This document shows, one piece after another, positions 30,845 through 43,502 of a DNA stretch of 55,212 nucleotides. Every line of letters begins with the position of its first letter. The first letter of the stretch is position 1. A program made the translations under genes and the position numbers. The notes beneath the pieces were generated by a model. It was given only the letters and a program-made list of their open reading frames with translations, did no database searches and had not been told where the DNA came from. This DNA is from Bacteroidales bacterium. Its GTDB lineage: Bacteria; Bacteroidota; Bacteroidia; Bacteroidales; UBA12170. Location: contig JAGGWH010000104.1 in assembly GCA_021157585.1 (NCBI GenBank), positions 1 through 55,212 of the forward strand. The letters are read 5' to 3'.

Positions 30845-32650
30845 TTATTTCTTATTCTTCAATAGCATTGCTTCAATACCTTTTACGGCACGGAAACCAT
30901 CAGCAATAGCACTAATGGCATCTGCTGTGCGATTTACAGCATCACCGCCGGCAAACACTTTTGGGTCAGAAGTTTGTTGTTGATCGTTGGTAACAATCCG
31001 GCCACGATTAAGATCAATCTTATCCACATATTCTTCTGAAATAAATGAATAATCTGCTTCCTGACCAATAGCACCGATAATCGTATCAACTTCTATAATC
31101 TTATTGCTGCCTTCTATTGGAACCGGACGAGGACGAGCGCCTTCTTCAGCTACCATTTTAGCTTCTATATATTCAATAGCCTTTACTTTTTTACCACTTT
31201 CATCGGCAATAATACGAACAGGTATGGCTTGTGGATGAATATGAACACCTTCGTCTTCGGCACCTTCTATCTCTTCCCAATCAGCAGGCATATCTTGTAC
31301 TCTACGACGATAAAGAATGGTTACATCAGCTCCATAACGAGCAGAAACACGTGCACCATCAATAGCTACGTTTCCACCACCAATTACAACAACTTTCTTA
31401 CCTACATCAAAAGATTCTTCGTTATTAATCAAGCGAAGATATTCAACAGCAGGAATAGAATTTTCAAGATCTTCACCTTCAACACCTAATTTCCAAGGTT
31501 TTTCAAATCCAATACCAATAAATACAGCATCATTCTTTTTATATATTTCATCGAAAGTAATATCTGTACCCACACGAGTATTAAACTCAATTTTTACACC
31601 TATCTTCTGAAGATAACCAATCTGTTTATCCAAACTTTCCATAGGTAAACGATATTTTGGAATACCATACATCGTCATTCCTCCGGCAAATTTTTTGGCT
31701 TCGAAAACAGTAACATCAAAACCACGTAAAGCCAAATAATAAGCGGCTGTTAAACCGGAAGGTCCGGCACCGATAATACCTACTTTATAGCCATTAGCTT
31801 CTTTAATTTCAGGATTTACAATTTCTTTAATCAAATCCGAAGTTTGAGCGCGCTCGGTAGCATAGCGTTTTAACCAACGAATAGCAACGGCCTCTCCACG
31901 AACAGCTATAGCACAAACATCTTCACATCGACGAGTACATACTTTACCGCACATTTCGGGTAATGGATTATTATCGTAAATAATCTTTAACGCATCTTCA
32001 TCATTTCCTTTAGCAATAGCATTGATATATTCGGGAATATGCATATGGTCAGGACAAACTTCGGTACACAATCCGCAAGAGATACAGCGACTAGCCTCAG
32101 CACGCGCTTCTTCCTCGTTATAACCCAATACTACTTCGGCAAATGATTTAACACGCTCTGCTCCATCAAGCTCACGCATAGGAACACGGTTGAAAACCAT
32201 CAAACTGGTTTCATTATTGCTTGTAAATGAAAGTTGATCTTTTCCGTAGGGATTATCAACACCCGGAGTCCATAAAAATGAATTGGCATCAGGTGAAACA
32301 TAATTATATTCTTTGGTCAGATTTAACGATCCTGTTGGACAAACATCTACGCAAAGCGCACACCAGCAACAACGACCATAATCAACTCTTGGGCGAAGAC
32401 CGGAATTTCCTTTTTCTTCTTTAATGTTAAATTCAGCTGCCAGTTCAACCATATCGATAGCCTCATTCATACAAATTGTAGAACAATTTCCACAACCTAT
32501 ACAATCCTGTAAATCGTTATAGTGGAAACCACGATATCGATCGGCAGTATCTTGTCCAAGCACATCCATACGTTTGGTATGTGGATTTTTACCGAACTGT
32601 GATATACCCGTTAGTGGTCTTACAAATCCTTTTAAATCGAAAAAACTCAT
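30845..32650 (-). CDS. NuoI/MbxN-like ferredoxin fused to GltD/NfnL-type NAD(P)H oxidoreductase
   Basis: Predicted electron-input subunit of the 13-gene complex, 601 residues. Residues 1-125 resemble MbhN/MbxN/NuoI, with two 4Fe-4S motifs: C50-C53-C56-C60 and C94-C97-C100-C104. A third motif (C189-C192-C195-C199) and the GltD-type cysteines (C234, C238, C242, C246) follow. The flavoprotein part has the FAD site VGIIGAGPSG (290-299) and a second Rossmann site VVVIGGGNVAIDGAR. YRRR after it suggests NADP(H). A C-terminal FAD signature, VFAGGDAVN, completes it. Last gene of the operon, 51 bases after the NuoD-like gene. It could oxidise NAD(P)H, or reduce NAD(P)+ with ferredoxin. Confidence 0.85.
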   Translation of the reverse strand: MSFFDLKGFVRPLTGISQFGKNPHTKRMDVLGQDTADRYRGFHYNDLQDCIGCGNCSTICMNEAIDMVELAAEFNIKEEKGNSGLRPRVDYGRCCWCALCVDVCPTGSLNLTKEYNYVSPDANSFLWTPGVDNPYGKDQLSFTSNNETSLMVFNRVPMRELDGAERVKSFAEVVLGYNEEEARAEASRCISCGLCTEVCPDHMHIPEYINAIAKGNDEDALKIIYDNNPLPEMCGKVCTRRCEDVCAIAVRGEAVAIRWLKRYATERAQTSDLIKEIVNPEIKEANGYKVGIIGAGPSGLTAAYYLALRGFDVTVFEAKKFAGGMTMYGIPKYRLPMESLDKQIGYLQKIGVKIEFNTRVGTDITFDEIYKKNDAVFIGIGFEKPWKLGVEGEDLENSIPAVEYLRLINNEESFDVGKKVVVIGGGNVAIDGARVSARYGADVTILYRRRVQDMPADWEEIEGAEDEGVHIHPQAIPVRIIADESGKKVKAIEYIEAKMVAEEGARPRPVPIEGSNKIIEVDTIIGAIGQEADYSFISEEYVDKIDLNRGRIVTNDQQQTSDPKVFAGGDAVNRTADAISAIADGFRAVKGIEAMLLKNKK

Positions 32651-32701
32651 TTTTCTTAAATTTATTTTTGACGACTTACCTAAATAAGCCCAAAGTCTTT
32701 T

Positions 32702-33805
32702 TTATCTTTCTATCTCAGGAGGACAAACACCAAGGCTGTTCATAATGAACGATACATCGGCTAAATTTTCTCCTACCAAAACATCTTCTAACAAACTAAC
32801 ACCATGCACATAGGCAGGGCCTCTTGCGTGAGCTCTACGTGGTTTGTCACTTCCGTCGCTTACCACATGAAAACCAAACTCTCCTCTTACACTTTCAACT
32901 TTTCCATATGCCGACCCTGCCGGAATAGTCCATTTCATTGGATTCGGCATTTTATTCAAATAATCGCCGGAAGGCAAATTCTGAATCAGCTGACGAATCA
33001 TAGATATTGTTTGACGAATTTCGAACTGACGTACTCTGGCACGAGCCCAAACATCACCACCTTCGAAAATACCCATTTCAAAATCGAGTTTATCGTAAGC
33101 GTCGTAAGGATTGTCTTTTCGCACATCGTGACCAATACCACAGCCACGAAGTGGAGCTCCAACTACTCCCCATTCCATTGCTTTTTCTTTGGTGATAACA
33201 CCAACACCTTGCGCTCTTTTTTGGAAAATAGCACTATCAAACATCATACGATCATAATCGTCGATACGCTTTTCGATATAATCCATCGTGCGAAGTACTT
33301 TATCTTCAAAGCCTTCCGGAATATCTCTTCTAACACCACCCGGCCAAATATACATATGATAAATACGACCTCCTGTCAGCTCTTCAAATAAATCTAAAAC
33401 ATAGTTACGATCACCCACTGACCATTGTCCAACAGTATATAATCCTGCGGAACCTGATTGGCCTGCATACCAAAGCATAAAACTTTGCAAACGTGCCAAT
33501 TCCAAAACTAAGGAACGTAAATATTGTCCTCTTTCCGGAACTTCACGACCTTCAATTTGTTCAACAGCCAAAGCAAAAGCAGCTTCCGGCGGATCAGGCT
33601 CAGGAACACAAAAACGACATAAAATAGTTGTTGATTGCATCCAATTTCTACGTTCGATTAATTTCTCGAATGCGCGATGCAAATAACCTACGTGAGTAGT
33701 AGCTTTCACAATAGTATCGCCTTCGAGCTGAAGTTTTACCATCATATTTCCGGTAATTCCCGGATGCTGAGGGCCAAGATATAATGTTGTAGATTTTTCT
33801 CTCAT
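32702..33805 (-). CDS. NuoD/MbxL-like large subunit without a NiFe site
   Basis: Homologue of complex I 49-kDa subunit and group 4 hydrogenase large subunits, 367 residues. LGPQHPGITGN (10-20) and the THVGYLHRAFEKL stretch are typical. The hydrogenase L1 motif is partly kept as C63-R-F-C66. The L2 motif near the C-terminus reads C361-P-P-E364, so only three of the four NiFe-binding cysteines exist and nickel binding is unlikely. Archaeal MBX/MBS enzymes also lost the NiFe site. I chose the ATG at 33805, one base after the upstream stop; the longer frame would overlap the NuoC-like gene by 59 bases. Confidence 0.87.
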   Translation of the reverse strand: MREKSTTLYLGPQHPGITGNMMVKLQLEGDTIVKATTHVGYLHRAFEKLIERRNWMQSTTILCRFCVPEPDPPEAAFALAVEQIEGREVPERGQYLRSLVLELARLQSFMLWYAGQSGSAGLYTVGQWSVGDRNYVLDLFEELTGGRIYHMYIWPGGVRRDIPEGFEDKVLRTMDYIEKRIDDYDRMMFDSAIFQKRAQGVGVITKEKAMEWGVVGAPLRGCGIGHDVRKDNPYDAYDKLDFEMGIFEGGDVWARARVRQFEIRQTISMIRQLIQNLPSGDYLNKMPNPMKWTIPAGSAYGKVESVRGEFGFHVVSDGSDKPRRAHARGPAYVHGVSLLEDVLVGENLADVSFIMNSLGVCPPEIER

Positions 33806-33806
33806 C

Positions 33807-34385
33807 TTATTCTCTTGAGTATTTTTTTGCAAAATCAGGAATTTCTTCACCGCTACGGTTCGCAATTCGTTCTCTTACATCTTGTTTATCTTCTCTTCCT
33901 TCTCTTTCAAAGAAGGTATCGTTTACATATTCGAGAGTATCAAAATCGCGACGCATTGGAGGTGCATCTTCCCAATCTTCTAAAATAAATTCTTTTTCAC
34001 CAATAAATCCGGGGAATTCCACACCAAACATTTCACGAATTTCACGCTGATAAGTATTAATTTGTCGCCAAATCATATCCGTATTTTCCATTACAGGATT
34101 TTCTCTATCGATACGGGTTTTTACAAAGAGGTTTACTTTTGTTTCTGGCGACCAAATAATATACACAAGCTCAAGCTCTCCACTCTCAAGCCAGTCTACA
34201 CAACTTAAATGCGATAAACTAATATAACCCAGCTTTTCTTTGGCATAGAGCAAAATAGATGAAACTTGTTCTTTTGGAGCAAATGCAAAAACGGTGTCTT
34301 TTCTAACCACTTCCGTTATCAGGTGCTCAAAAGCTGCTTGTAACTGTTGAGCTAATATTTCTTCTTTTGTATAGCTTGTTTCCAT
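33807..34385 (-). CDS. NuoC/MbxK-like 30-kDa subunit
   Basis: Peripheral-arm subunit of 192 residues. The NuoC signature region is visible: INTYQREIREMFGVEFPGF, followed by FILEDWEDAPPMRRDF, where the family has L-R-D. It packs against the NuoD-like subunit. I chose the ATG at 34385, ten bases after the NuoB-like stop; a TTG at 34412 is an alternative and would overlap. No cofactor is expected. Confidence 0.85.
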   Translation of the reverse strand: METSYTKEEILAQQLQAAFEHLITEVVRKDTVFAFAPKEQVSSILLYAKEKLGYISLSHLSCVDWLESGELELVYIIWSPETKVNLFVKTRIDRENPVMENTDMIWRQINTYQREIREMFGVEFPGFIGEKEFILEDWEDAPPMRRDFDTLEYVNDTFFEREGREDKQDVRERIANRSGEEIPDFAKKYSRE

Positions 34386-34395
34386 ATCTATCCGT

Positions 34396-34941
34396 TTACC
34401 AGTTGTATTCAACCAAAGGCCAGTTTTTAAGTACTTTCTTTTGATTATTGCGATACCAATCTAAATTCTCTTTGTATTTTGTTGCACCATCGGCTTTACC
34501 TGCCGCAATAAGTCTTTGCAATTCTTTAAATCCTTCAATTACAGATTCCGGACGAGGCATACATCCATTGATATAAACATCAACAGGAATATATTTATCA
34601 AGCAATTTGATGGTGTTATACGAATCCCAATACATTCCTCCATTGATGGTACAAGAGCCAAATCCAATAACATATTTTGGGTCTTGCATTTGTTCGTAAA
34701 CACGAATAACACGCTTTAATGTTTTTGTTGATAGATAACCTGTTATCAGGAGTAAATCGGCCTGACGAGGAGTAGCAGCACCACGAACACCAAGACGCTC
34801 AGCATCATAGCGAGAAGTTAGTGTTGCTGGTAATTCAATAGCACCACAGCCTGTTCCGTAGGCCAACATAAATAAAGAATTTTTTCGAGTAAAATTCTTT
34901 ATATAATCAACGATTGTTTGTGCGTTTTTGTCGTTATACAT
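34396..34941 (-). CDS. NuoB/MbxJ-like Fe-S subunit with only three cysteines
   Basis: Homologue of the complex I PSST subunit and hydrogenase small subunit, 181 residues, carrying the terminal (N2/proximal) 4Fe-4S cluster. NuoB uses a tandem Cys-Cys pair plus two more cysteines. Here the pair reads GC-G (C32, G33), followed by C97 (GFGSCTINGG) and C127 (INGCMPRPE). The whole protein contains only these three cysteines, so the cluster should have an open iron. This is the feature I recall for the archaeal MBS complex, where the open site is proposed to reduce sulfane sulfur. It lies in tight operon context. Confidence 0.87.
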   Translation of the reverse strand: MYNDKNAQTIVDYIKNFTRKNSLFMLAYGTGCGAIELPATLTSRYDAERLGVRGAATPRQADLLLITGYLSTKTLKRVIRVYEQMQDPKYVIGFGSCTINGGMYWDSYNTIKLLDKYIPVDVYINGCMPRPESVIEGFKELQRLIAAGKADGATKYKENLDWYRNNQKKVLKNWPLVEYNW

Positions 34942-34961
34942 CGAATAAATATTTTAATCAT

Positions 34962-35873
34962 TTAATAAAAAGCTGCCCATACAAGACCAATAAGACCAAA
35001 AAATGCAGGCCACTTCCAAAAATATGTAATGGCTTGTTCTGTACGATAACGTGGATTTATTACGCCATACAAAACAGGAATCATATACAGAGCAAATGTT
35101 TTAATAACTAATTCTATCAAATTGGATGCTCCTCCCATAAATACATCTACAAATAAGGTAAGTTTAACAAAGGCGAATATTGATCCGCTTGTCATCATCA
35201 TTCCCAGATATTTTCCGCCAAATTCCGAAACAGGACCGGAAGCAACCTCTGCAGGAGCATGAACAATATCAAATGGAGCATAATGAAACATTCCTAACAT
35301 TGCCATAATAGCAGCTATAAAAGCAAAGGGATTGCTGAACATCATCCAGCTTTCACTCTGTGCTTGAAGTTCAATCATTCCGGTAATTGAAGTCGTGTGA
35401 AACTGAGTCATTAATGCTACCATAGACATAACAAAAGGAATTTCGTAGCCCACCATTTGACTTAAACCACGACTAACACCAATAGCTGAGTTTGGATTTC
35501 CTGTTTGTCCGGCTCCTAAAGCCATTCCTAAAGATCCGAAAACCATCATATATATGAGAAAAATAAGGTCGCCACTGAAATTTAAATTTGAAAACCAATT
35601 CCCACTTGTTAAAATAGGGACAAACATTAGTGATGTAATAGAAGCGGTAATAGCAAAAACAGGACCCATATGTTGCATCCAACCATGGTGAATACTGGTT
35701 TCTTTAGAGTATAATTTTACCACGTCTATAAAATTCTGATAGATGGGTGGTCCTACACGATTTTGAATCCGAGCAATAACTTTTCTTCTTGCTCCACCGT
35801 ACAACATACCAACCGTAAAGGCTAATAAAATGGTGGCTATTGCTCCAAGTATTTCTATTAAAATTGTATTCAT
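34962..35873 (-). CDS. NuoH/MbxM-like membrane subunit
   Basis: Membrane subunit linking the Fe-S arm to the pump modules, 303 residues, about eight helices. RIQNRVGPPIYQNFIDVVKL near residue 35 and the loop FDIVHAPAEVASGPVSEFGG are family signatures. That loop differs from the complex I version, which is rich in glutamate near the quinone tunnel, consistent with a relative that does not use quinone. It lies between the second MrpD-like gene (53-base gap) and the NuoB-like gene (20 bases). Confidence 0.88.
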   Translation of the reverse strand: MNTILIEILGAIATILLAFTVGMLYGGARRKVIARIQNRVGPPIYQNFIDVVKLYSKETSIHHGWMQHMGPVFAITASITSLMFVPILTSGNWFSNLNFSGDLIFLIYMMVFGSLGMALGAGQTGNPNSAIGVSRGLSQMVGYEIPFVMSMVALMTQFHTTSITGMIELQAQSESWMMFSNPFAFIAAIMAMLGMFHYAPFDIVHAPAEVASGPVSEFGGKYLGMMMTSGSIFAFVKLTLFVDVFMGGASNLIELVIKTFALYMIPVLYGVINPRYRTEQAITYFWKWPAFFGLIGLVWAAFY

Positions 35874-35926
35874 TTTATAGAATCTTTATTTCTTTTTATT
35901 TTTTATTTCAATCCTTCTTCCATTAA

Positions 35927-37777
35927 TTAGAAGCCAAAATATTTTGTTCCGGCTATCAATAGTAAGACTAAAAATGCCATTACATAGATAGCATAAAGCT
36001 GACCATTACCACTATAAAAACGTCGAATGAAATCGAACAATGCTTCTAAACCTTTGCCGAAATCGGTATAATAATCATCAATTTTTCTCTTTAATAAAGG
36101 CCAAATGGCTCTTTCAAAAGGTTTATAAAAATCCGTTTGAAAAGTCATATTATCTTCAGGCTGAATTATTTCGCCTGAAGAGCTAATATCTTTAGTGCTA
36201 ACATAACGTTGGTTTTTATATCCTTTAATTGTTATAAATGCCAAGCCAACTAAAAAGACACCCATAACGGAAATCATTATATTTTGCAATACTACTTTAT
36301 CGCCCCAAGAGTTAAATAATACACTAAGCTGATACCATTCGATATTAGGAATTCTGTTTTCAAACCCAAGAACAAGCATTGCTTTTTGAATAGGTTCAAT
36401 AATAAATCCGGGAAAAGTACCGGCAAATACCGAAATGGCTGAGAGGACTAACATAGGAATCAGCATTGCTAATGGAGCTTCTTTAACATTAGCATATTCC
36501 GGCTCTTCTTGTCCTAAGAACATTCCAAATAAAATGCGATAGGAATACAAAAAAGCAGCAGTACTGGATAAGAAAACCATAATCACTAAATAATAATGAT
36601 CAGAAGTAATTAAAGCTTCGTAAAGCATCCATTTACCCACAAAACCACCTAAAGGAGGAATTCCGGCTAAGGTGATAATGGATATTAAAGTGGCAATAAA
36701 TGTCCAAGGCATTCTTCTAATCAGACCTGTTACTTTAGTCATATCCGTACTTCCAACCTGACGCTCAACAGCTCCAACGGCCATAAATAAGGTTGCTTTA
36801 AATACGGCGTGAAGAACAGCTAAAAACAAACCTGCCATAACTCCAAGATAAGTTCCTGAAGCCAAACCGATAATAATATAACCTAATTGAGCAATAGAAG
36901 AATAAGCTAAAAGTTTTTTTGCATCAGTTTGAATAACGGCATAAAATGTTGCTAATACCGCAGTAATAGCTGCTAACCAAGCCACAACTTCATTAATCAG
37001 CCAGTTTTGCGTACTTACTAAATTAAATAGAACTAAAGCAAATCCAAAAACACCCATTTTTGAAAGTGCTCCTGAAAATAAAGCAGTAAATGACATTGGT
37101 GAGCCTGCATAAGCTTCAGGCGCCCACACATGAACAGGCATAATAGCGGTTTTAACACCAAAGCCTATCATTAATAATATTGCGATAGCTAATTGATAGC
37201 CAAAGCCGATAGCGTAAATACTGGCAAATATATCTTCCAATAAAAAACTTCCAATAAAACTATATATTATTACAATAGCCATTAACATTGAATAGGCTCC
37301 AATAGCACTAAAAATCATATATTTTAAGCCCCTACGATCTACATCTTTACCGGAATAGATTACAATAAGATAAGACGACCAAGTCATTATTTCCCAGAAA
37401 AAGAAAAGCGAAATTAAATCGCGACTCATAAGAATACCCAACATTGCACCAATGCTAAAAAGGAAATTCATATAAAAGTAGCCAAGATTATCTTTCCCAT
37501 TCATATAAGCTGTGGAATATAAAAGGGTTAAAAAACCTAAAACCACTACTATTATCCCAAATAAATATCCTGCCGAAGTAAAGCCCCATTGTAAATGAAG
37601 GCCTCCAATTTCAAAATTGAGCTGCGCTGCTGCATCTATTGAGAAAAAGAGATATGATACTGCAAGCATAATAAGTACTACAAAGGAATTGAGTAGAATT
37701 GGCAGAAACTTATTTAAAACAAAGCTTATAATTGCTCCGCCAAAAACCAGAATTAATATGATAATTAAACTATTCAT
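35927..37777 (-). CDS. MrpD/NuoL-type pump subunit, second copy (MbxH'-like)
   Basis: Antiporter-like membrane subunit of 616 residues. The proton/Na+ channel residues are conserved: Glu129 in FFFWEIMTWSSYL (helix 5) and Lys209 in GFGVKTAIMPVHVWAPEAY (helix 7). KKLLAYSSIAQLGY and HAVFKATLF follow. The C-terminal hundred residues are an extra polar stretch plus a final helix, somewhat like a short NuoL arm. Two MrpD-type genes in a row are the mark of MBX as against MBH operons. Confidence 0.87.
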   Translation of the reverse strand: MNSLIIILILVFGGAIISFVLNKFLPILLNSFVVLIMLAVSYLFFSIDAAAQLNFEIGGLHLQWGFTSAGYLFGIIVVVLGFLTLLYSTAYMNGKDNLGYFYMNFLFSIGAMLGILMSRDLISLFFFWEIMTWSSYLIVIYSGKDVDRRGLKYMIFSAIGAYSMLMAIVIIYSFIGSFLLEDIFASIYAIGFGYQLAIAILLMIGFGVKTAIMPVHVWAPEAYAGSPMSFTALFSGALSKMGVFGFALVLFNLVSTQNWLINEVVAWLAAITAVLATFYAVIQTDAKKLLAYSSIAQLGYIIIGLASGTYLGVMAGLFLAVLHAVFKATLFMAVGAVERQVGSTDMTKVTGLIRRMPWTFIATLISIITLAGIPPLGGFVGKWMLYEALITSDHYYLVIMVFLSSTAAFLYSYRILFGMFLGQEEPEYANVKEAPLAMLIPMLVLSAISVFAGTFPGFIIEPIQKAMLVLGFENRIPNIEWYQLSVLFNSWGDKVVLQNIMISVMGVFLVGLAFITIKGYKNQRYVSTKDISSSGEIIQPEDNMTFQTDFYKPFERAIWPLLKRKIDDYYTDFGKGLEALFDFIRRFYSGNGQLYAIYVMAFLVLLLIAGTKYFGF

Positions 37778-37789
37778 TTCTTTTTCTTT

Positions 37790-39280
37790 TTAATTACGCC
37801 CAACTGATAAAACCGACTGAATATAATGTTGCTTATCGAGTAAGTCAGTAGCGGCTCTTTCGATTAAACCCGAAATCAAATCGGGATAAATACCAATAAT
37901 AACAATAACTAATGCCAAAATAAGCATTGCAAATTTTGCGTTAAGGCTTGGTATCTTTATTTCGACAGTAGAAATACGTTCTTTAAAATAAATGCGATGA
38001 AGGACTCTGAAATAGTATACTATTTCTATAACACTCACCACTAAAATAATGGCAATAACCGCAATTAAGCGAACATCGGCAGCAGCCATTAAAATATATA
38101 ATTTGCTCCAAAAACCTGCAAAAGGAGGTAAGCCGACAATGGCTAACGAGCCCAAAGCGAAAAGGAAAGCTGTAAATGGCATTAGTTTACCTATACCATC
38201 TAAATCAGAAATATTTTTTTCTTTGGAATGATATACTAAATAGGTAGCACTTAAGAAAAGCATTCCTTTAATAATGGCATGATTAAACATTAAGAAAATA
38301 GCTGCAAATACGGCTTCGTGTGTTCCAATACCAAAAGCAACCAAGACTAATCCCATCTGACCAATACTGGAATAAGCCAACATCCGCTTTAATCTTCCTT
38401 GACGCATAGCAGTTACTTCGGCAACAGCCATCGTTATTAATCCCATAACAACTAATAACTGTAGAACTTCAACAACATCAAACAGAGTAAATATTATACG
38501 AATAAGGGCATAAACACCGGCTTTTACAACTATACCTGCAAAAATAGCACCTATAGGTCCGGGAGCTTGAGTATAAACATCGGGAGCCCAACCATTTAAT
38601 GGAAACATTTCGGCTTCAATACCAAATCCAACAAAAAATAGTATCAGAATAACACCTTTCATATATGGATTCATATCAGGAACTCTCTGAGCAATTTCGG
38701 CCATATTAAGTGTTCCAACCTGAGTATAAAGAATTAATATAGCTAATAGTATAAGAAATGAGGCAAAAGAACCAATCAATAAATATTTAAACGCAGCTTC
38801 AGCACCATCGCGTTCGCGATAAAAAGCCGTTAAGGAATATGCCGAGATGGCTGTAATTTCAAGAAATACAAATAAGTTAAAAATATCACCCGTTAGCACA
38901 ACTCCAATTGCACCTGTAATAAGCATCATAAATAACACATAAAATTTTTGTGTTTGAGCATAATCAACTTCAGGTTTAAAATTATAAGTATATATCCATA
39001 TTATAAGTCCAAGAAAGCTAAAAAGGCTAACAAGAAAGCCTGTGAAAGGACTAAATACCAGATTGATTCCCCAAGGAGGCGACCAACCTGCAATAATTTC
39101 GATAATAGTTGTGTCTTTTGTAATGACCTGTGTCATTAAAATAACCGAGATATAGGAAAGGTAAAGCAATACCAATCCGGGAATGAGTCGTACTAGATTC
39201 TTATTTAATTTCCCAAACAAAGGGATTAAGAAAGCCGCCATAAGCGGAAGTGCTATATAATGTACCGGAGATATTACCAT
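37790..39280 (-). CDS. MrpD-type pump subunit, first copy (MbxH-like)
   Basis: Antiporter-like membrane subunit of 496 residues, about 14 helices. Glu141 in FVFLEITAISAYS matches the helix 5 glutamate of NuoM/MrpD. The helix 7 position that is lysine in NuoM is glutamate here (Glu222 in GFGIEAEMFPLNGWAPD), and the nearby His is Asn. KRMLAYSSIGQMG and HAIIKGMLF are kept. Ion coupling may therefore differ from its neighbour, which has the canonical lysine. The start overlaps the end of the MrpC-like gene by seven bases. Confidence 0.87.
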   Translation of the reverse strand: MVISPVHYIALPLMAAFLIPLFGKLNKNLVRLIPGLVLLYLSYISVILMTQVITKDTTIIEIIAGWSPPWGINLVFSPFTGFLVSLFSFLGLIIWIYTYNFKPEVDYAQTQKFYVLFMMLITGAIGVVLTGDIFNLFVFLEITAISAYSLTAFYRERDGAEAAFKYLLIGSFASFLILLAILILYTQVGTLNMAEIAQRVPDMNPYMKGVILILFFVGFGIEAEMFPLNGWAPDVYTQAPGPIGAIFAGIVVKAGVYALIRIIFTLFDVVEVLQLLVVMGLITMAVAEVTAMRQGRLKRMLAYSSIGQMGLVLVAFGIGTHEAVFAAIFLMFNHAIIKGMLFLSATYLVYHSKEKNISDLDGIGKLMPFTAFLFALGSLAIVGLPPFAGFWSKLYILMAAADVRLIAVIAIILVVSVIEIVYYFRVLHRIYFKERISTVEIKIPSLNAKFAMLILALVIVIIGIYPDLISGLIERAATDLLDKQHYIQSVLSVGRN

Positions 39281-39636
39281 CTTAAATTCTTTATTTCGTC
39301 AATAGCTGCAGTATTATGATGTCTGTATAATCGGATAACCAACGAGAGAGCTACGGCGGTTACAGCAAAACCAATAACAATAGCCGTAAGCACTAATGCT
39401 TGAGGAACAGGATCGACCATAGCTTGAGTAGAGCCCAAAACTTCCGGTGAAAAAATAGGAGCTGTTCCGTTATTAACATATCCTATAGCTACAAAAAGTA
39501 GGTGAAGACCAGAATCTACTATCGAAAGACCGATAACGATCTTAAGTAGATTTTTCTTAGCTAGAGCAGCGTAGAGTCCGATTAACATCAGAGCTACTGC
39601 TGTTCCGTAAATACTTATCGTTAAAAATTCGTTCAT
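39274..39636 (-). CDS. MrpC/MnhC (MbxG)-like, NuoK-type subunit
   Basis: Three-helix membrane protein of 120 residues. The NuoK/MrpC pattern is visible in GLYAALAKKNLLKIVIGLSI, then DSGLHLLFVAIGY, and VDPVPQALVLTAIVIGFAVT, which includes the PQALVLTAIVI core of MnhC. In Mrp antiporters this subunit sits between the B- and D-type subunits. It is the sixth gene of the operon. Confidence 0.9.
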   Translation of the reverse strand: MNEFLTISIYGTAVALMLIGLYAALAKKNLLKIVIGLSIVDSGLHLLFVAIGYVNNGTAPIFSPEVLGSTQAMVDPVPQALVLTAIVIGFAVTAVALSLVIRLYRHHNTAAIDEIKNLRW

Positions 39637-39645
39637 TTTAGCGTC

Positions 39646-40362
39646 TTAATTTTCATTTTTGGCCTCAGGCCGATTGTTTAACAATACGGTATCGATAACA
39701 CCAGCAAGTTCTGAAGCTACTTTAAATCCAACAGCTACATAAATAATTCCGATGATACCTCCACTCAATAAATCGTTTAATTCGCCGGTAGGCAAAAAGT
39801 TTTCAAGAAAAGTCATACCAAGAATAAGTCCTACAAAACCAACAGTAGCAAAAACAACTCCTGCTATAGATTCTATCCAGCTAATGACATTATGATTAAC
39901 TTTAAATTTTCTATATGAAATTAACATTAACAAGGTAGCCGTTGCTATTATTGCTCCTCCTTGAAATCCTCCACCTGGTGAAAGGTGTCCGTGAATAAAA
40001 ACATAAGCTCCCAAAAGAACAATTAAAGGAAATAATATTTGGCTTCCTATCTGAACAATGCGACTTGAAGGTAATTTGGCGCGTATTTGTTTTTCGCCTT
40101 TTCGACGACGACGATACATAATACTTGACAAGCCGGTAGCAGCCAAAAATAATACTGTTACTTCGCCCAAAGTATCAAAACCCCGATAGTTAACTACAAT
40201 AGCTGTAACCGCATTCGACACTTTAAGTTCAGACGGAGTTTTTTCAATGTAATAATCGCCAACGTTATTACGATCTTCTCCAAATGGAATTTGAGAAACA
40301 ACACCTACAAGAAAATAACCGATAGTAGCTAAAATGAGAAATACTATAATTCTTTTAATCAT
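39646..40362 (-). CDS. Fused MbhE-like and MrpB/MnhB-like membrane subunit
   Basis: Membrane protein of 238 residues with two domains. The N-terminal part (about 1-85) matches MbhE, equivalent to the C-terminal end of MrpA: AIVVNYRGFDTLGEVTVLFL. The C-terminal part (about 105-230) is MnhB: YVFIHGHLSPGGGFQGGAII is its signature. In many Mrp and Mbh operons these are separate genes or part of MrpA. The start overlaps the DUF4040 gene by four bases (ATGA). Confidence 0.88.
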   Translation of the reverse strand: MIKRIIVFLILATIGYFLVGVVSQIPFGEDRNNVGDYYIEKTPSELKVSNAVTAIVVNYRGFDTLGEVTVLFLAATGLSSIMYRRRRKGEKQIRAKLPSSRIVQIGSQILFPLIVLLGAYVFIHGHLSPGGGFQGGAIIATATLLMLISYRKFKVNHNVISWIESIAGVVFATVGFVGLILGMTFLENFLPTGELNDLLSGGIIGIIYVAVGFKVASELAGVIDTVLLNNRPEAKNEN

Positions 40363-40658
40363 TTATCATCTCCTTTCTTCATCTCAACATAAGATGTTTT
40401 TTTGTCGCAACATCTTTCCTTATCGGTAGTATTACGAATAGTAATAATAAAAATGATAGTTGTTAAAGCCACTCCAATAGCAGCTTCGGTAAGTGCAACA
40501 TCGGGTGCTTGCAGAATAAAAAAGAATAACGAAAGACCCAAACTAACAAGACCGGTAGCAACAACGGCATAAAGTAAGTTTTTAGAGATTACCGCATAAA
40601 TTGCTGATCCTATAGTTAAAATAACTAAAGCAAAAACAGGAATTACTAACCAATTCAT
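40359..40658 (-). CDS. MbhD/DUF4040 membrane subunit
   Basis: Three-helix protein of 99 residues matching the DUF4040/MbhD domain, which corresponds to a late segment of MrpA: NLLYAVVATGLVSLGLSLFF, then LQAPDVALTEAAIGVALTT. APDVALTEA is the recognisable core. It overlaps both neighbours by four bases, so translation is coupled. The C-terminus is a charged tail. Confidence 0.88.
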   Translation of the reverse strand: MNWLVIPVFALVILTIGSAIYAVISKNLLYAVVATGLVSLGLSLFFFILQAPDVALTEAAIGVALTTIIFIITIRNTTDKERCCDKKTSYVEMKKGDDK

Positions 40659-41002
40659 TTTGATTCCTCCATTTTTTCTACCACTTCTTCGTAGGCATCA
40701 ATATGCTCTTTAGAAATGGGTTTAAGTTTATCTTTATAGCTTCCTCTAGCAATTGCATGCGAGCTAAGCGGATTAGAAAAGGCAATAAACAAAATCATTA
40801 ATACCAATTTTATCCACCAATCAGGTTCTAAAAAAGCGACTCCAAAAATTAAGCTCATAGCACCTAAAGTAGAAGCTTTTGTTCCGGCTTGGATCCTAGT
40901 ATAGATGTCGGGCATACGAAAAATACCTAAAGCTCCCAAAAACAAAAAGACAGCTCCGATACTAACAAAGAAATAGCCTATGTAAGTAAAAATATTTTCC
41001 AT
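40655..41002 (-). CDS. MrpG/MnhG-like subunit
   Basis: Three-helix subunit of 115 residues. SIGAVFLFLGALGIFRMPDI, then YTRIQAGTKASTLG is the MnhG signature. I chose the ATG at 41002, one base after the MrpF stop; the longer frame would begin at a TTG inside that gene. The charged C-terminal tail is cytosolic. Confidence 0.9.
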   Translation of the reverse strand: MENIFTYIGYFFVSIGAVFLFLGALGIFRMPDIYTRIQAGTKASTLGAMSLIFGVAFLEPDWWIKLVLMILFIAFSNPLSSHAIARGSYKDKLKPISKEHIDAYEEVVEKMEESK

Positions 41003-41003
41003 A

Positions 41004-41270
41004 TTAAATACCTCCCTCCAAATAGCGGGCAAATGCTAAAACGCCAATAAAACCTAAGACAGCATATACTAATGCAACATCAACATAAATAAAGCGCCCA
41101 AAAACGTGCGACATAAATACCATTGCAGCTATTGCTAAAACGGAAATGGTATCAAGAGCAACCACTCTATCAGAAGCCGTAGGCCCTTTTAAAAACCTAA
41201 CGAATCCCAACAAAATACCAAGAGAAATAATTGCAATGATTACCAAATTAAAATAGTCCTCGAATACCAT
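41004..41270 (-). CDS. MrpF/MnhF-like subunit
   Basis: Three-helix subunit of 88 residues. RFLKGPTASDRVVALDTISV is diagnostic for MnhF/MrpF. In Mrp antiporters it lies beside E and G at the end of the membrane arm. The ATG is two bases after the MrpE stop. Confidence 0.9.
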   Translation of the reverse strand: MVFEDYFNLVIIAIISLGILLGFVRFLKGPTASDRVVALDTISVLAIAAMVFMSHVFGRFIYVDVALVYAVLGFIGVLAFARYLEGGI

Positions 41271-41272
41271 AT

Positions 41273-41785
41273 CTATTTATCAAATATTTTAATTAAAATT
41301 TTCTCGAAATCAGCAGCTATTGCTTCATAAACACCTGCTTCATCTTTTGTTGTCATTTTTAACCAATGAATATAAAATTCATCTTCAATTAAATCAACGG
41401 TAAGCGTTCCGGGAGTGAGAGTAATACTGTTTGCTAAAACCATTTTGGCAAAATCGGATTTTAAGCTCGACTTAAATTTAACTATCCCCGGATTAACAGG
41501 TAATTTAGGATTGATTACAATTTTAGCAACTTGAAAATTAGCCTTTATAAGAGCAATTAAGAACACCCAAGAATATTGAAGCAAATACATTATTCTACGG
41601 GGATGAAAAAGACGAAAGCCATAATGGGAAAAAGAAGTAAAATTTAATGCAGATATTATTCCCGTTACTATAAGTCCCGTAACAATTTCGGCAGTTGCAA
41701 AACTAACAGTAAAGGCATACCAAACCACCATTAACAATAGCCAGGTATATAAAAACCGGCTCCATTTTGAAGAAGTATTTTTCAT
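41273..41785 (-). CDS. MrpE/MnhE-like subunit, first gene of the complex
   Basis: Membrane protein of 170 residues with two or three helices and a C-terminal soluble domain. FATAEIVTGLIVTGIISALN, the VLANSITLTPGTLTVDL stretch and FYIHWL are the MnhE/MrpE hallmarks. It heads the 13-gene operon running to 30845. A -7 box lies at 41849-41842 and a palindrome follows it, so this is the likely control point for the complex. Confidence 0.9.
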   Translation of the reverse strand: MKNTSSKWSRFLYTWLLLMVVWYAFTVSFATAEIVTGLIVTGIISALNFTSFSHYGFRLFHPRRIMYLLQYSWVFLIALIKANFQVAKIVINPKLPVNPGIVKFKSSLKSDFAKMVLANSITLTPGTLTVDLIEDEFYIHWLKMTTKDEAGVYEAIAADFEKILIKIFDK

Positions 41786-41951: not shown

Positions 41952-43502
41952 TCAGCTTAAAAACATCTTAATCTTCTGAAATAACTCGGCTTTTATTATA
42001 GGTTTTGTAATATACTCATCGCAACCAAAATCGAAGGCTTTTTCCATATCGCCATCTATAGCATAAGCGGTAACAGCTAAAACAGGAAGTTTTGGATTTA
42101 ATAGTTTTATTTGCTTAGTTGCATTATAACCATTCATAACCGGCATTCTAAGATCCATCAATATCAAATCAATCTTACGCTCCGTAAGCACTTCTTTGAC
42201 AGCGTCTTTACCGTTTTTTACCCAAATAAGCTCTGCTTTTGTTTTACGTAAAAGAGCTTCTAAATATTGGTAGTTTGATGCGATATCTTCTGCAATCAGT
42301 ATAACCTTATTCTCAAAATTGGGAATTTTTTTGTTTTCTTTTATCGTAACTCCTTCTTTTTCCTGCTTTCTTTGGAGGTAAGGAAGGGTAAAGTAAAAAC
42401 TACTCCCCTTTCCTAAAACTGATTCTACCCAAATATCGCCACCTAATTTTTTTACAAGGGTTTTTACAATTGTCAAACCTAGACCTGTACCCATCTTTTT
42501 ACCTTTGCCATCTACCTGATGAAAACGTTCAAAAATCAGTTTTTGATCTTCTTTGGAAATACCTATTCCCATATCATTCACAAAAAACAACAACTTAGGT
42601 GTTCCATCATTATAAGTTTCAGAAATAAGCTTATATCCAAAAGTTATTTTACCACTTTCTGTAAATTTAATCGCATTATCAATAAGGTTAGATACTACTT
42701 GACGAAGGCGTGTTTCGTCGGTTAAAATATCTGCATTAAGATAGGGTAACCCCTGTTCTAACTCTAAATCCAAAGCTTTAGAAACTAATCGTTTATCGTG
42801 TTTATAAAGTTTCTGCAGGTCTATTAAAATTTCATTAATATTGGTGGATACCAATTTTATATCCTGAAAACCGGCTTCTATTTTAGAAATATCTATTATA
42901 TCATTAATAAGAGTTAATAAATGAGCTCCACTTGTTTTTACTATTTCGGCAAATTGCTCTTTTTCTTCTGCATCTTCCGATTCGGCAAGTAATTTAGTAA
43001 ACCCAATAATAGTATTCATAGGAGTACGAATTTCGTGACTCATATTAGCTAAGAATGCCGATTTAAGCCTGTCGTTTTCTTCTGCTTTTGCCTTATCTTT
43101 AATAAGCTTTTCTTCTGTTATCTTTTGTAAACTGATATCCTCACCTAAATGGAGAAAATAGTAGTCCCCCGATTCAGTTTTTATTACTTTATTCGTTAAA
43201 TGATACCAAATAACTTTTCCGTTTACATCTTGTTTTTTAATATTAAAACTGAAATTCTTTTTCTTCCCTAATAAGCTTGCTTTATAAAGTAAGGAAATAG
43301 ATTCTTTATCTTCTTTACTTATAAGTTTTTCAAAAGGAATATCTCTGAGGGTATCTCCTTCACGAAAAGAATAACCACTAATTTTCTCAAACATTTCATT
43401 AACAAAAAGGATTTTGCCTTCTTCGTTGCTTAAAATAATAAATTGATTAGAATGCTTGATAATTAGTGAAAATATAGCGTTTAACGAAAGTGGGTTCGAC
43501 AT
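41952..43502 (-). CDS. PAS hybrid sensor histidine kinase/response regulator
   Basis: Cytosolic signalling protein of 516 residues with no membrane segment. A PAS domain (about 12-125) is followed by HisKA with phospho-acceptor His156 (ANMSHEIRTPMN). HATPase_c follows, with N-box SNLIDNAIKF and G boxes NDMGIGIS and GTGLGLTIVKTLV. The C-terminal receiver has acidic E405/D406, phospho-acceptor Asp450 (LILMDLRMPVMNGY), Thr478 and Lys500. The PAS ligand is unknown. It lies upstream of the MBX-like operon on the same strand with a 166-base gap, so it may sense redox or substrate for it; that link is only inference. A -7 box TATATTTG sits at 43535-43528. Confidence 0.9.
   Translation of the reverse strand: MSNPLSLNAIFSLIIKHSNQFIILSNEEGKILFVNEMFEKISGYSFREGDTLRDIPFEKLISKEDKESISLLYKASLLGKKKNFSFNIKKQDVNGKVIWYHLTNKVIKTESGDYYFLHLGEDISLQKITEEKLIKDKAKAEENDRLKSAFLANMSHEIRTPMNTIIGFTKLLAESEDAEEKEQFAEIVKTSGAHLLTLINDIIDISKIEAGFQDIKLVSTNINEILIDLQKLYKHDKRLVSKALDLELEQGLPYLNADILTDETRLRQVVSNLIDNAIKFTESGKITFGYKLISETYNDGTPKLLFFVNDMGIGISKEDQKLIFERFHQVDGKGKKMGTGLGLTIVKTLVKKLGGDIWVESVLGKGSSFYFTLPYLQRKQEKEGVTIKENKKIPNFENKVILIAEDIASNYQYLEALLRKTKAELIWVKNGKDAVKEVLTERKIDLILMDLRMPVMNGYNATKQIKLLNPKLPVLAVTAYAIDGDMEKAFDFGCDEYITKPIIKAELFQKIKMFLS

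Follow-up and report, generated by a model that had tools for sequence, protein, structure and literature searches.

The closest described relatives of the gene cluster examined here are the complexes termed MBS or, earlier, MBX, a type known from sulfur-reducing thermophiles. In the MBS of Pyrococcus furiosus, a three-cysteine cluster has been tied to the reduction of sulfane sulfur at an open iron, and residues C25, C85, and C385 were described as dispensable (PMC7684303). The mbx operon of Thermotoga maritima, reported as a transfer from Thermococcales (PMC2246101), is a 13-subunit transcription unit encoding an MBS homolog, and its mbxA gene was upregulated 4.36-fold with S0 (PMC9431562). 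The related Thermotogae cluster, whose existence a preliminary description of the present DNA had left to be checked, is thus already in the literature. A putative Mrp-Mbx has been reported in Riftia symbionts (PMC11636981), and Melioribacter has a complex I cluster devoid of NuoEFG, for which a donor other than NADH, for example ferredoxin, was suggested (PMC3534657). Here, we describe a 13-gene cluster in a stretch of 55,212 nucleotides, hereafter the window, of contig JAGGWH010000104.1, assembly GCA_021157585.1 (Bacteroidales bacterium, UBA12170). The cluster is real, ordered, and conserved, and it is of the MBX/MBS kind with a built-in NAD(P)H input that occurs in two paralogous versions.

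All 13 open reading frames (ORFs) were found on the minus strand between positions 30845 and 41785, to which strand all gene coordinates of the cluster given below refer. The spacing between neighbors, gaps or overlaps, ranged from -59 to +53 bases. Pfam assignments gave the subunit order MrpE, MrpF, MrpG, MbhD, MbhE+MrpB, MrpC, MrpD, MrpD', NuoH, NuoB, NuoC, NuoD, and NuoI, in agreement with the preliminary description, and included none of NuoE, NuoF, and NuoG, whose absence from the cluster had also been pointed out. This is the MBX/MBS subunit set: 13 subunits, two of them MrpD-type, with Mrp E, F, G, B, and C modules. A genome scan retrieved 61 related loci with NuoD identities of 55-97%. 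Among the 62 stretches made up of these loci and the window, all 13 genes were matched in 34, the other 28 being partial. Strict order by ORF start was kept in 31 of the 34 complete stretches; the exceptions were L044 and L071, with an additional GltD-like ORF near the locus start, and L048, with overlapping ORFs. Such a 13-gene arrangement is far beyond chance.

Twelve of the gene identities given in the preliminary description stood, but the last one did not, since the gene called NuoI-like (30845..32650) encodes a 601-amino acid protein with a fused flavoprotein. A NuoI-like part spans residues 1 to about 148, and a flavoprotein of the NfnB/GltD type, with flavin adenine dinucleotide (FAD) and NAD(P)H motifs, spans residues from about 149 to 601 (Fer4_20 and Pyr_redox_2 matches). 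Residues 8-117 matched P. furiosus MbsN, a chain of 208 amino acids, and residues 151-600 matched NfnL. The NCBIfam model PRK13984, a "putative oxidoreductase" of the same length and architecture, matched residues 7-600 with 635 bits, under its cut-off of 946. An AlphaFold2 model built with the start methionine removed had a predicted local distance difference test score (pLDDT) of 87.1 and a predicted template modeling score (pTM) of 0.81, and its residues 148-597 aligned with P. furiosus NfnL with a Z score of 46.5 and a deviation of 1.9 Å over 439 residues. Matches in the fold comparison were confined to about residues 144-600 of the model, and the NuoI half was assigned by sequence. Fold, FAD and NAD(P) motifs, and two 4Fe-4S sites in the C-terminal domain together make the flavoprotein half a member of the NfnB/GltD family. 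With a flavoprotein of NAD(P)H type joined to NuoI in one protein, the electron partner, which the preliminary description deemed not obvious, lies inside the operon. The fusion was found well beyond the window: a fusion-type gene followed NuoD in 59 of the 61 related loci, the remaining two contigs stopping there, and 58 of these 59 visibly extended into the flavoprotein half, L050 stopping within the NuoI half.

We then compared the ligands and motifs of the fusions, calling the window type B and the second type A. Counts refer to 85 full-length fusions (23 A and 62 B) out of 91 loci with a best flavoprotein match; those left out were cut or broken (L038, L044, L050, L107, and L109) or scored below 700 bits (L066), and near-copies are among the counted rows (L058 and L074 share an identical NuoD, as do L019 and L110). 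Each of the 17 cysteines of the window fusion was kept in 85/85. They suffice for two 4Fe-4S sites per half, with one further cysteine in each. The glutamate that ligates the proximal cluster in bifurcating NfnB was replaced by lysine in all 85 fusions, as it is in the NfnABC chain 9n5u, while the equivalent of R201, an arginine near flavin N5, was retained in all 85. In StnC, a GltD-type NADPH module that feeds electrons with no bifurcation, lysine also stands at the NfnB glutamate position (PMC10482914); our column was aligned with 9n5u and not with the StnC sequence. The R201 equivalent is not decisive for bifurcation because StnC has an equivalent arginine too (PMC10482914). As a separate observation, Cys234 (within PEMCGKVC) is invariant in the 85 fusions, whereas NfnL has threonine and 9n5u leucine at this position; it may serve as a ligand to the cluster at which lysine took the place of glutamate.

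The two types differed in their nucleotide motif. YRR, called indicative of NADP in DsrL-2 proteins (PMC7596348), was found at the aligned columns in 62/62 B fusions, three intermediates included, and in 0/23 A fusions, in which SLE or something close to it occupies this site, along with an insertion of six columns. Outside the 85, L066 carried YRR and L107 lacked it, and the other four ended before the motif or were broken there. Core type and flavoprotein type are not always coupled, as L105, L106, and L108 combine an A-type NuoD with a YRR fusion.

The catalytic core pointed to the same family. NuoD-like (MbsL; Complex1_49kDa; 32702..33865) and NuoB-like (MbsJ; Oxidored_q6; 34396..34941) had P. 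furiosus MBS as their closest PDB chains (6u8y_L, E 1.3e-108, and 6u8y_J, E 5.3e-65, respectively). NuoD counts below refer to 86 rows (61 B and 25 A), and NuoB counts to 54 (53 B and 1 A). A quick maximum-likelihood analysis of 105 NuoD rows placed the 61 B rows, the 25 A rows, and MbsL in one group with a support of 99 in the Shimodaira-Hasegawa-like approximate likelihood ratio test (SH-aLRT), and left 16 Nuo rows and 2 group 4 hydrogenase rows outside; of 25 Nuo loci retrieved, 14 were used, all high-scoring. A was one clade (100), and 60 of the 61 B rows were another (96), with L066 outside. When 10 further NuoD-like proteins from the phylum, with lower scores, were included (115 rows), the group with MBS persisted (99) and the additions stayed outside it; the long row L146 joined the two group 4 rows, which were no longer one side of a branch. 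SH-aLRT was the sole support, the single MBS row sits on a long branch, and the reference branches are long; we are unsure of the deep branching order. A placement inside group 4 hydrogenases or Nuo had been named in the preliminary description as an outcome that would overturn its proposal of an MBX/MBS type, neither canonical complex I nor hydrogenase. NuoD grouped with MbsL, apart from both.

Active-site residues were in line with the trees. The three cysteine ligands of the MBS proximal cluster were kept in 54/54 NuoB, whereas the paired proximal cysteines of complex I were missing in 54/54. Glycine occupied the MBS C25 position, and no other cysteine was present within six residues of C28 (54/54). 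In the aligned part, NuoB had three cysteines in total in 49 of the 54 rows, with one or two elsewhere in 5, and the window NuoB has exactly three. As the proximal cluster has three cysteine ligands only, one of its irons would be open. In NuoD, the quinone residues of Nqo4 were replaced (H38 by threonine and Y87 by valine, 86/86 each), a departure from complex I, and the last NiFe cysteine was glutamate in 86/86, so the four NiFe cysteines of MBH were never complete. The MbhL E21 position was left unused, the alignment being unsure there. We also noticed that window-type NuoD proteins have an extra cysteine three residues before the MbsL C85 position (CRFC; 59/61 rows, and 6/25 A), which makes a CxxC beside the substrate chamber.

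The membrane arm starts with genes for MrpE-like (MNHE; 41273..41785; PF01899, E 2.3e-38), MrpF-like (41004..41270; PF04066, E 6.1e-19), and MrpG-like proteins (MnhG; 40655..41032; PF03334, E 3.7e-25). These are followed by an MbhD/DUF4040-like gene (40359..40658; PF13244, E 1.5e-20), an MbhE and MrpB (MnhB) fusion (39646..40362; PF20501, E 1.9e-10, and PF04039, E 3.7e-23), and an MrpC-like gene (Oxidored_q2; 39274..39636; PF00420, E 3.1e-26). Both MrpD genes belong to Proton_antipo_M, the MbsH-like one (37790..39280; PF00361, E 1.1e-66) with PRK08377 and the MbsH'-like one (35927..37777; PF00361, E 1.6e-62) with PRK08668 as top NCBIfam match. NuoH-like (MbsM; NADHdh; 34962..35873; PF00146, E 6.2e-56) and, beyond NuoB, NuoC-like (MbsK; Complex1_30kDa; 33807..34412; PF00329, E 1.3e-20) complete the set. 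A glutamate of the kind found in transmembrane helix 7 (TM7) was present in 33 of 43 ORFs of the MrpD kind, and a TM7-type lysine in 37 of 48 of the second MrpD kind, the other 10 and 11 being unmatched by the pattern; this fits MbsH and MbsH' (PMC7684303). Upstream, 166 bases from MrpE and on the same strand, lies a gene for a PAS hybrid histidine kinase (window 41952-43502, minus strand). The window had no Rfam matches at gathering cut-offs, and a search for tRNAs was likewise negative.

The host genome (95.5% complete) contains two NuoD-like genes among those found, both MBX-type, one in the window and one on another contig (C25), where a second cluster of the same kind has an A-type flavoprotein. 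There, a single protein of 1045 amino acids comprises both MrpD and MrpD' (L073:7841-10978, minus strand). The PRK13984 model scored the second complex at 850 bits, as against 635 for the window fusion. An ORF divergent to this complex (L073:13728-14426, plus strand) reads like a CRP/FNR-type regulator, with no NCBIfam match at E 1e-20, and may hint at redox control. The genome further has rnf genes (with RnfB, G, and E recognized by reading alone), an FeFe hydrogenase cluster of group A6, NfnAB-like proteins, menA, and cytochrome bd, and the window itself carries phosphate acetyltransferase and acetate kinase. In the host genome, PF01512 was found only in RnfC and in a NuoF-family protein beside the FeFe hydrogenase, NuoE and NuoG not having been searched apart. 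This gene set fits a fermenter with several redox carriers, probably including quinone.

The 61 related loci were labeled Bacteroidota (40), Ignavibacteriota (6), Calditrichota (5), Chlorobiota (4), single others (4), or unlabeled (2); nearly all are metagenome-assembled genomes, and some labels are possibly wrong. Together with the second complex in the same genome, they rule out a lone transfer into one genome. How frequent the fusion appears depends on the sample. Across the phylum, the fusion model was matched at E 1e-140 in 2 of 395 genomes, one being the host, while within the host's order it was matched at E 1e-100 in 47 of 295, the first few candidates per genome being scored in both samples. 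Of these 47, G592 and G507 scored only about 350 bits and started past model residue 120, which leaves about 45 that resemble whole or partial fusions. Among 14 control genomes, only T. maritima matched NF010590 (PRK13984) at E 1e-150 or better, above the model cut-off. Assuming that this match lies in the MBX operon, the model scores place T. maritima presumably closer to the second type, which lacks YRR. Ten of the 61 loci belong to isolates with the names Zod/ZodW or SulCav, which we take to be from a sulfide-rich spring and sulfidic caves.

What could such a complex do? We give an even chance to the cluster encoding an NADPH-fed, ion-pumping complex of the MBX/MBS family that reduces S-S bonds and has its own NADPH dehydrogenase. 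NADPH would pass a hydride to the FAD of the last subunit, in its NfnB/GltD-type half, and electrons would then travel singly, presumably without bifurcation, through two 4Fe-4S clusters of the flavoprotein half and two of the NuoI half before reaching NuoB and its proximal 4Fe-4S cluster, a chain that we deduce from the ligands and from homology. The open-iron NuoB cluster would reduce a substrate of the sulfane-sulfur or disulfide type in the chamber formed by NuoB, NuoD, and NuoH, an acceptor suggested by the MBS-type site. This redox step, running in the forward direction, would power H+ pumping by the two MrpD-type subunits, and the distal Mrp module would exchange H+ for Na+, the latter being the probable exported ion by analogy with P. 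furiosus.

Several points weigh against an NADPH-fed S-S reductase. We know of no activity for any NAD(P)H-fused MBX. By potentials, electron transfer from NADPH to polysulfide yields little energy, and coupling would therefore be tight. The MbsL C85/C385 equivalents, which are cysteines in 61/61 B and 20/25 A rows, are missing in 5/25 A. When the motif was excluded from a tree of the flavoprotein half, YRR presence mapped onto it as a single change, so that the split counts as one event. Given its menA and cytochrome bd, the host is likely to contain quinones. Finally, the published model for T. maritima has ferredoxin as donor (PMC9431562).

This last point leads to the explanation that survives best after the NADPH-fed one, although we regard it as unlikely: ferredoxin would be the main donor, as for P. 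furiosus MBS and in the T. maritima model, and the flavoprotein would be a side entry or exit balancing NADPH. Published MBX/MBS models do use ferredoxin (PMC7684303, PMC9431562), the NuoI half keeps two complete 4Fe-4S sites, and the Rnf, FeFe hydrogenase cluster, and NfnAB of the host would use reduced ferredoxin. The fused flavoprotein suggests otherwise, as a fusion-type gene follows NuoD in 59/59 loci with room for it and the cofactor ligands of the fusion are invariant (85/85). A minor side path would need no such invariance, and the conservation of ligands thus weighs against ferredoxin as the main donor.

Quinone chemistry offers another possibility, namely that the complex is an NADPH:menaquinone oxidoreductase, in other words a complex I with a different dehydrogenase. 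In its favor, the host has menA and cytochrome bd, and no NuoD genes besides the two of MBX type turned up in its genome (95.5% complete). Yet, both residues that hold the quinone headgroup are missing in every NuoD, the paired proximal cysteines are missing in every NuoB, and NuoD groups with MBS, which makes this reading improbable. We deem slightly less probable still that the complex works backward or, following the older idea of MBX, acts as a ferredoxin:NADP+ oxidoreductase, and balances redox pools while either spending or building an ion gradient. Nfn-type reactions are reversible. An Mbx was cited as a ferredoxin:NADP+ enzyme in 2019 (PMC6349859), but electrons could then be short-circuited inside the last subunit, bypassing the pump-coupled proximal cluster. 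A misread group 4 hydrogenase or ordinary complex I, with which only subunits are shared, is hardly credible, and NuoD residues (NiFe cysteines incomplete, 86/86), the separate group in NuoD trees, and the lack of NuoEFG in the cluster rule both out.

Returning to the NADPH-fed S-S reductase, a broader proposal can be made, which we hold tentatively and at somewhat less than even odds. NAD(P)H dehydrogenases would have been gained at least twice in the complex I superfamily, as NuoEFG and as a GltD/NfnB-type module on NuoI. The host would have two pumps, of which one is made for NADPH and the other, in which the NADP motif is missing, probably for NADH; in both, electrons would end up at an S-S reducing site with an open iron. 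This would amount to an NAD(P)H-driven, quinone-free, ion-pumping sulfur respiration in Bacteroidota and their relatives. If so, the ferredoxin donor assumed in published MBX models may have to be reconsidered for many bacteria, and conserving energy from NADPH would be open to anaerobic Bacteroidota, Ignavibacteria, and Calditrichota. The idea of a complex I relative that is driven by NAD(P)H, pumps Na+, and has no NuoEFG would become testable, with bearing on the origin of the NADH module of complex I. The paired complexes in one genome would be a natural setting in which to compare input of the NADPH and NADH types on the same machine.

Neighboring genes were surveyed downstream of the cluster at 31 window-type loci and were judged from the first letters of ORFs only. 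Genes resembling nfnAB lay immediately downstream in 3/31 (L029, L036, and L072; NfnB by sequence match, NfnA by reading), which ties the cluster weakly to the NADPH pool. Directly after the fusion gene of the host's second complex, and also beside the host nfnAB, is a gene for a dihydroorotate-dehydrogenase-like protein (L009:11348-12343 and L010:7981-8970, both minus strand; NCBIfam PRK07565). By first letters, the same kind followed the fusion gene in 5/31 loci (L051, L056, L060, L062, and L070), and a similar ORF followed nfnAB in 3 more, L057 ending at the fusion gene. Such proteins may be partners of GltD-type modules, in the way that PreA partners PreT. At L023, the region downstream of the fusion gene has, on the opposite strand, two ORFs whose first letters show CxxCH-type heme motifs.

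We found no description of an NAD(P)H-linked MBX or of a Bacteroidota MBX in the literature searched; most subscription journals were outside its scope, and this is no proof of absence. MBX itself is already described, in T. maritima; the fused NAD(P)H module and the presence of two complexes in one genome make the present case a new form of it. The P. furiosus MBS is alike in its 13 subunits, doubled MrpD, three-cysteine proximal cluster, loss of the quinone residues, and NuoD/NuoB sequence kinship. It differs in that MbsN has 208 amino acids, as against 601 with the NfnB/GltD flavoprotein here, and in that the non-ligating C25 is missing in the window NuoB. The T. maritima MBX, known here by papers and the NF010590 match alone, is unlike the present cluster in being published with a ferredoxin donor. 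Strain 3DAC (Zhurongbacter), compared by description, likewise has a 13-gene bacterial MBS, which was upregulated with sulfur, but it was described with ferredoxin (PMC10356935). On the flavoprotein side, NfnB of NfnAB (5jca, 4ylf) shares the fold, the FAD and NADPH motifs, the R201 equivalent, and the cluster cysteines, whereas the window fusion has lysine for the glutamate ligand (85/85), one extra invariant cysteine, and the NuoI fusion. StnC of the Stn transhydrogenase (8oh5) resembles it as a GltD-type NADPH module with the lysine swap feeding a larger complex (PMC10482914), but the partners of that module, as described, are a part resembling NuoG and a bifurcating core of the HydBC kind, without a membrane arm. 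Complex I, finally, shares the NuoB/C/D/H/I core architecture and antiporter-like subunits, whereas the window cluster has Mrp E/F/G/B/C modules and lacks NuoEFG, H38/Y87, and the paired proximal cysteines.

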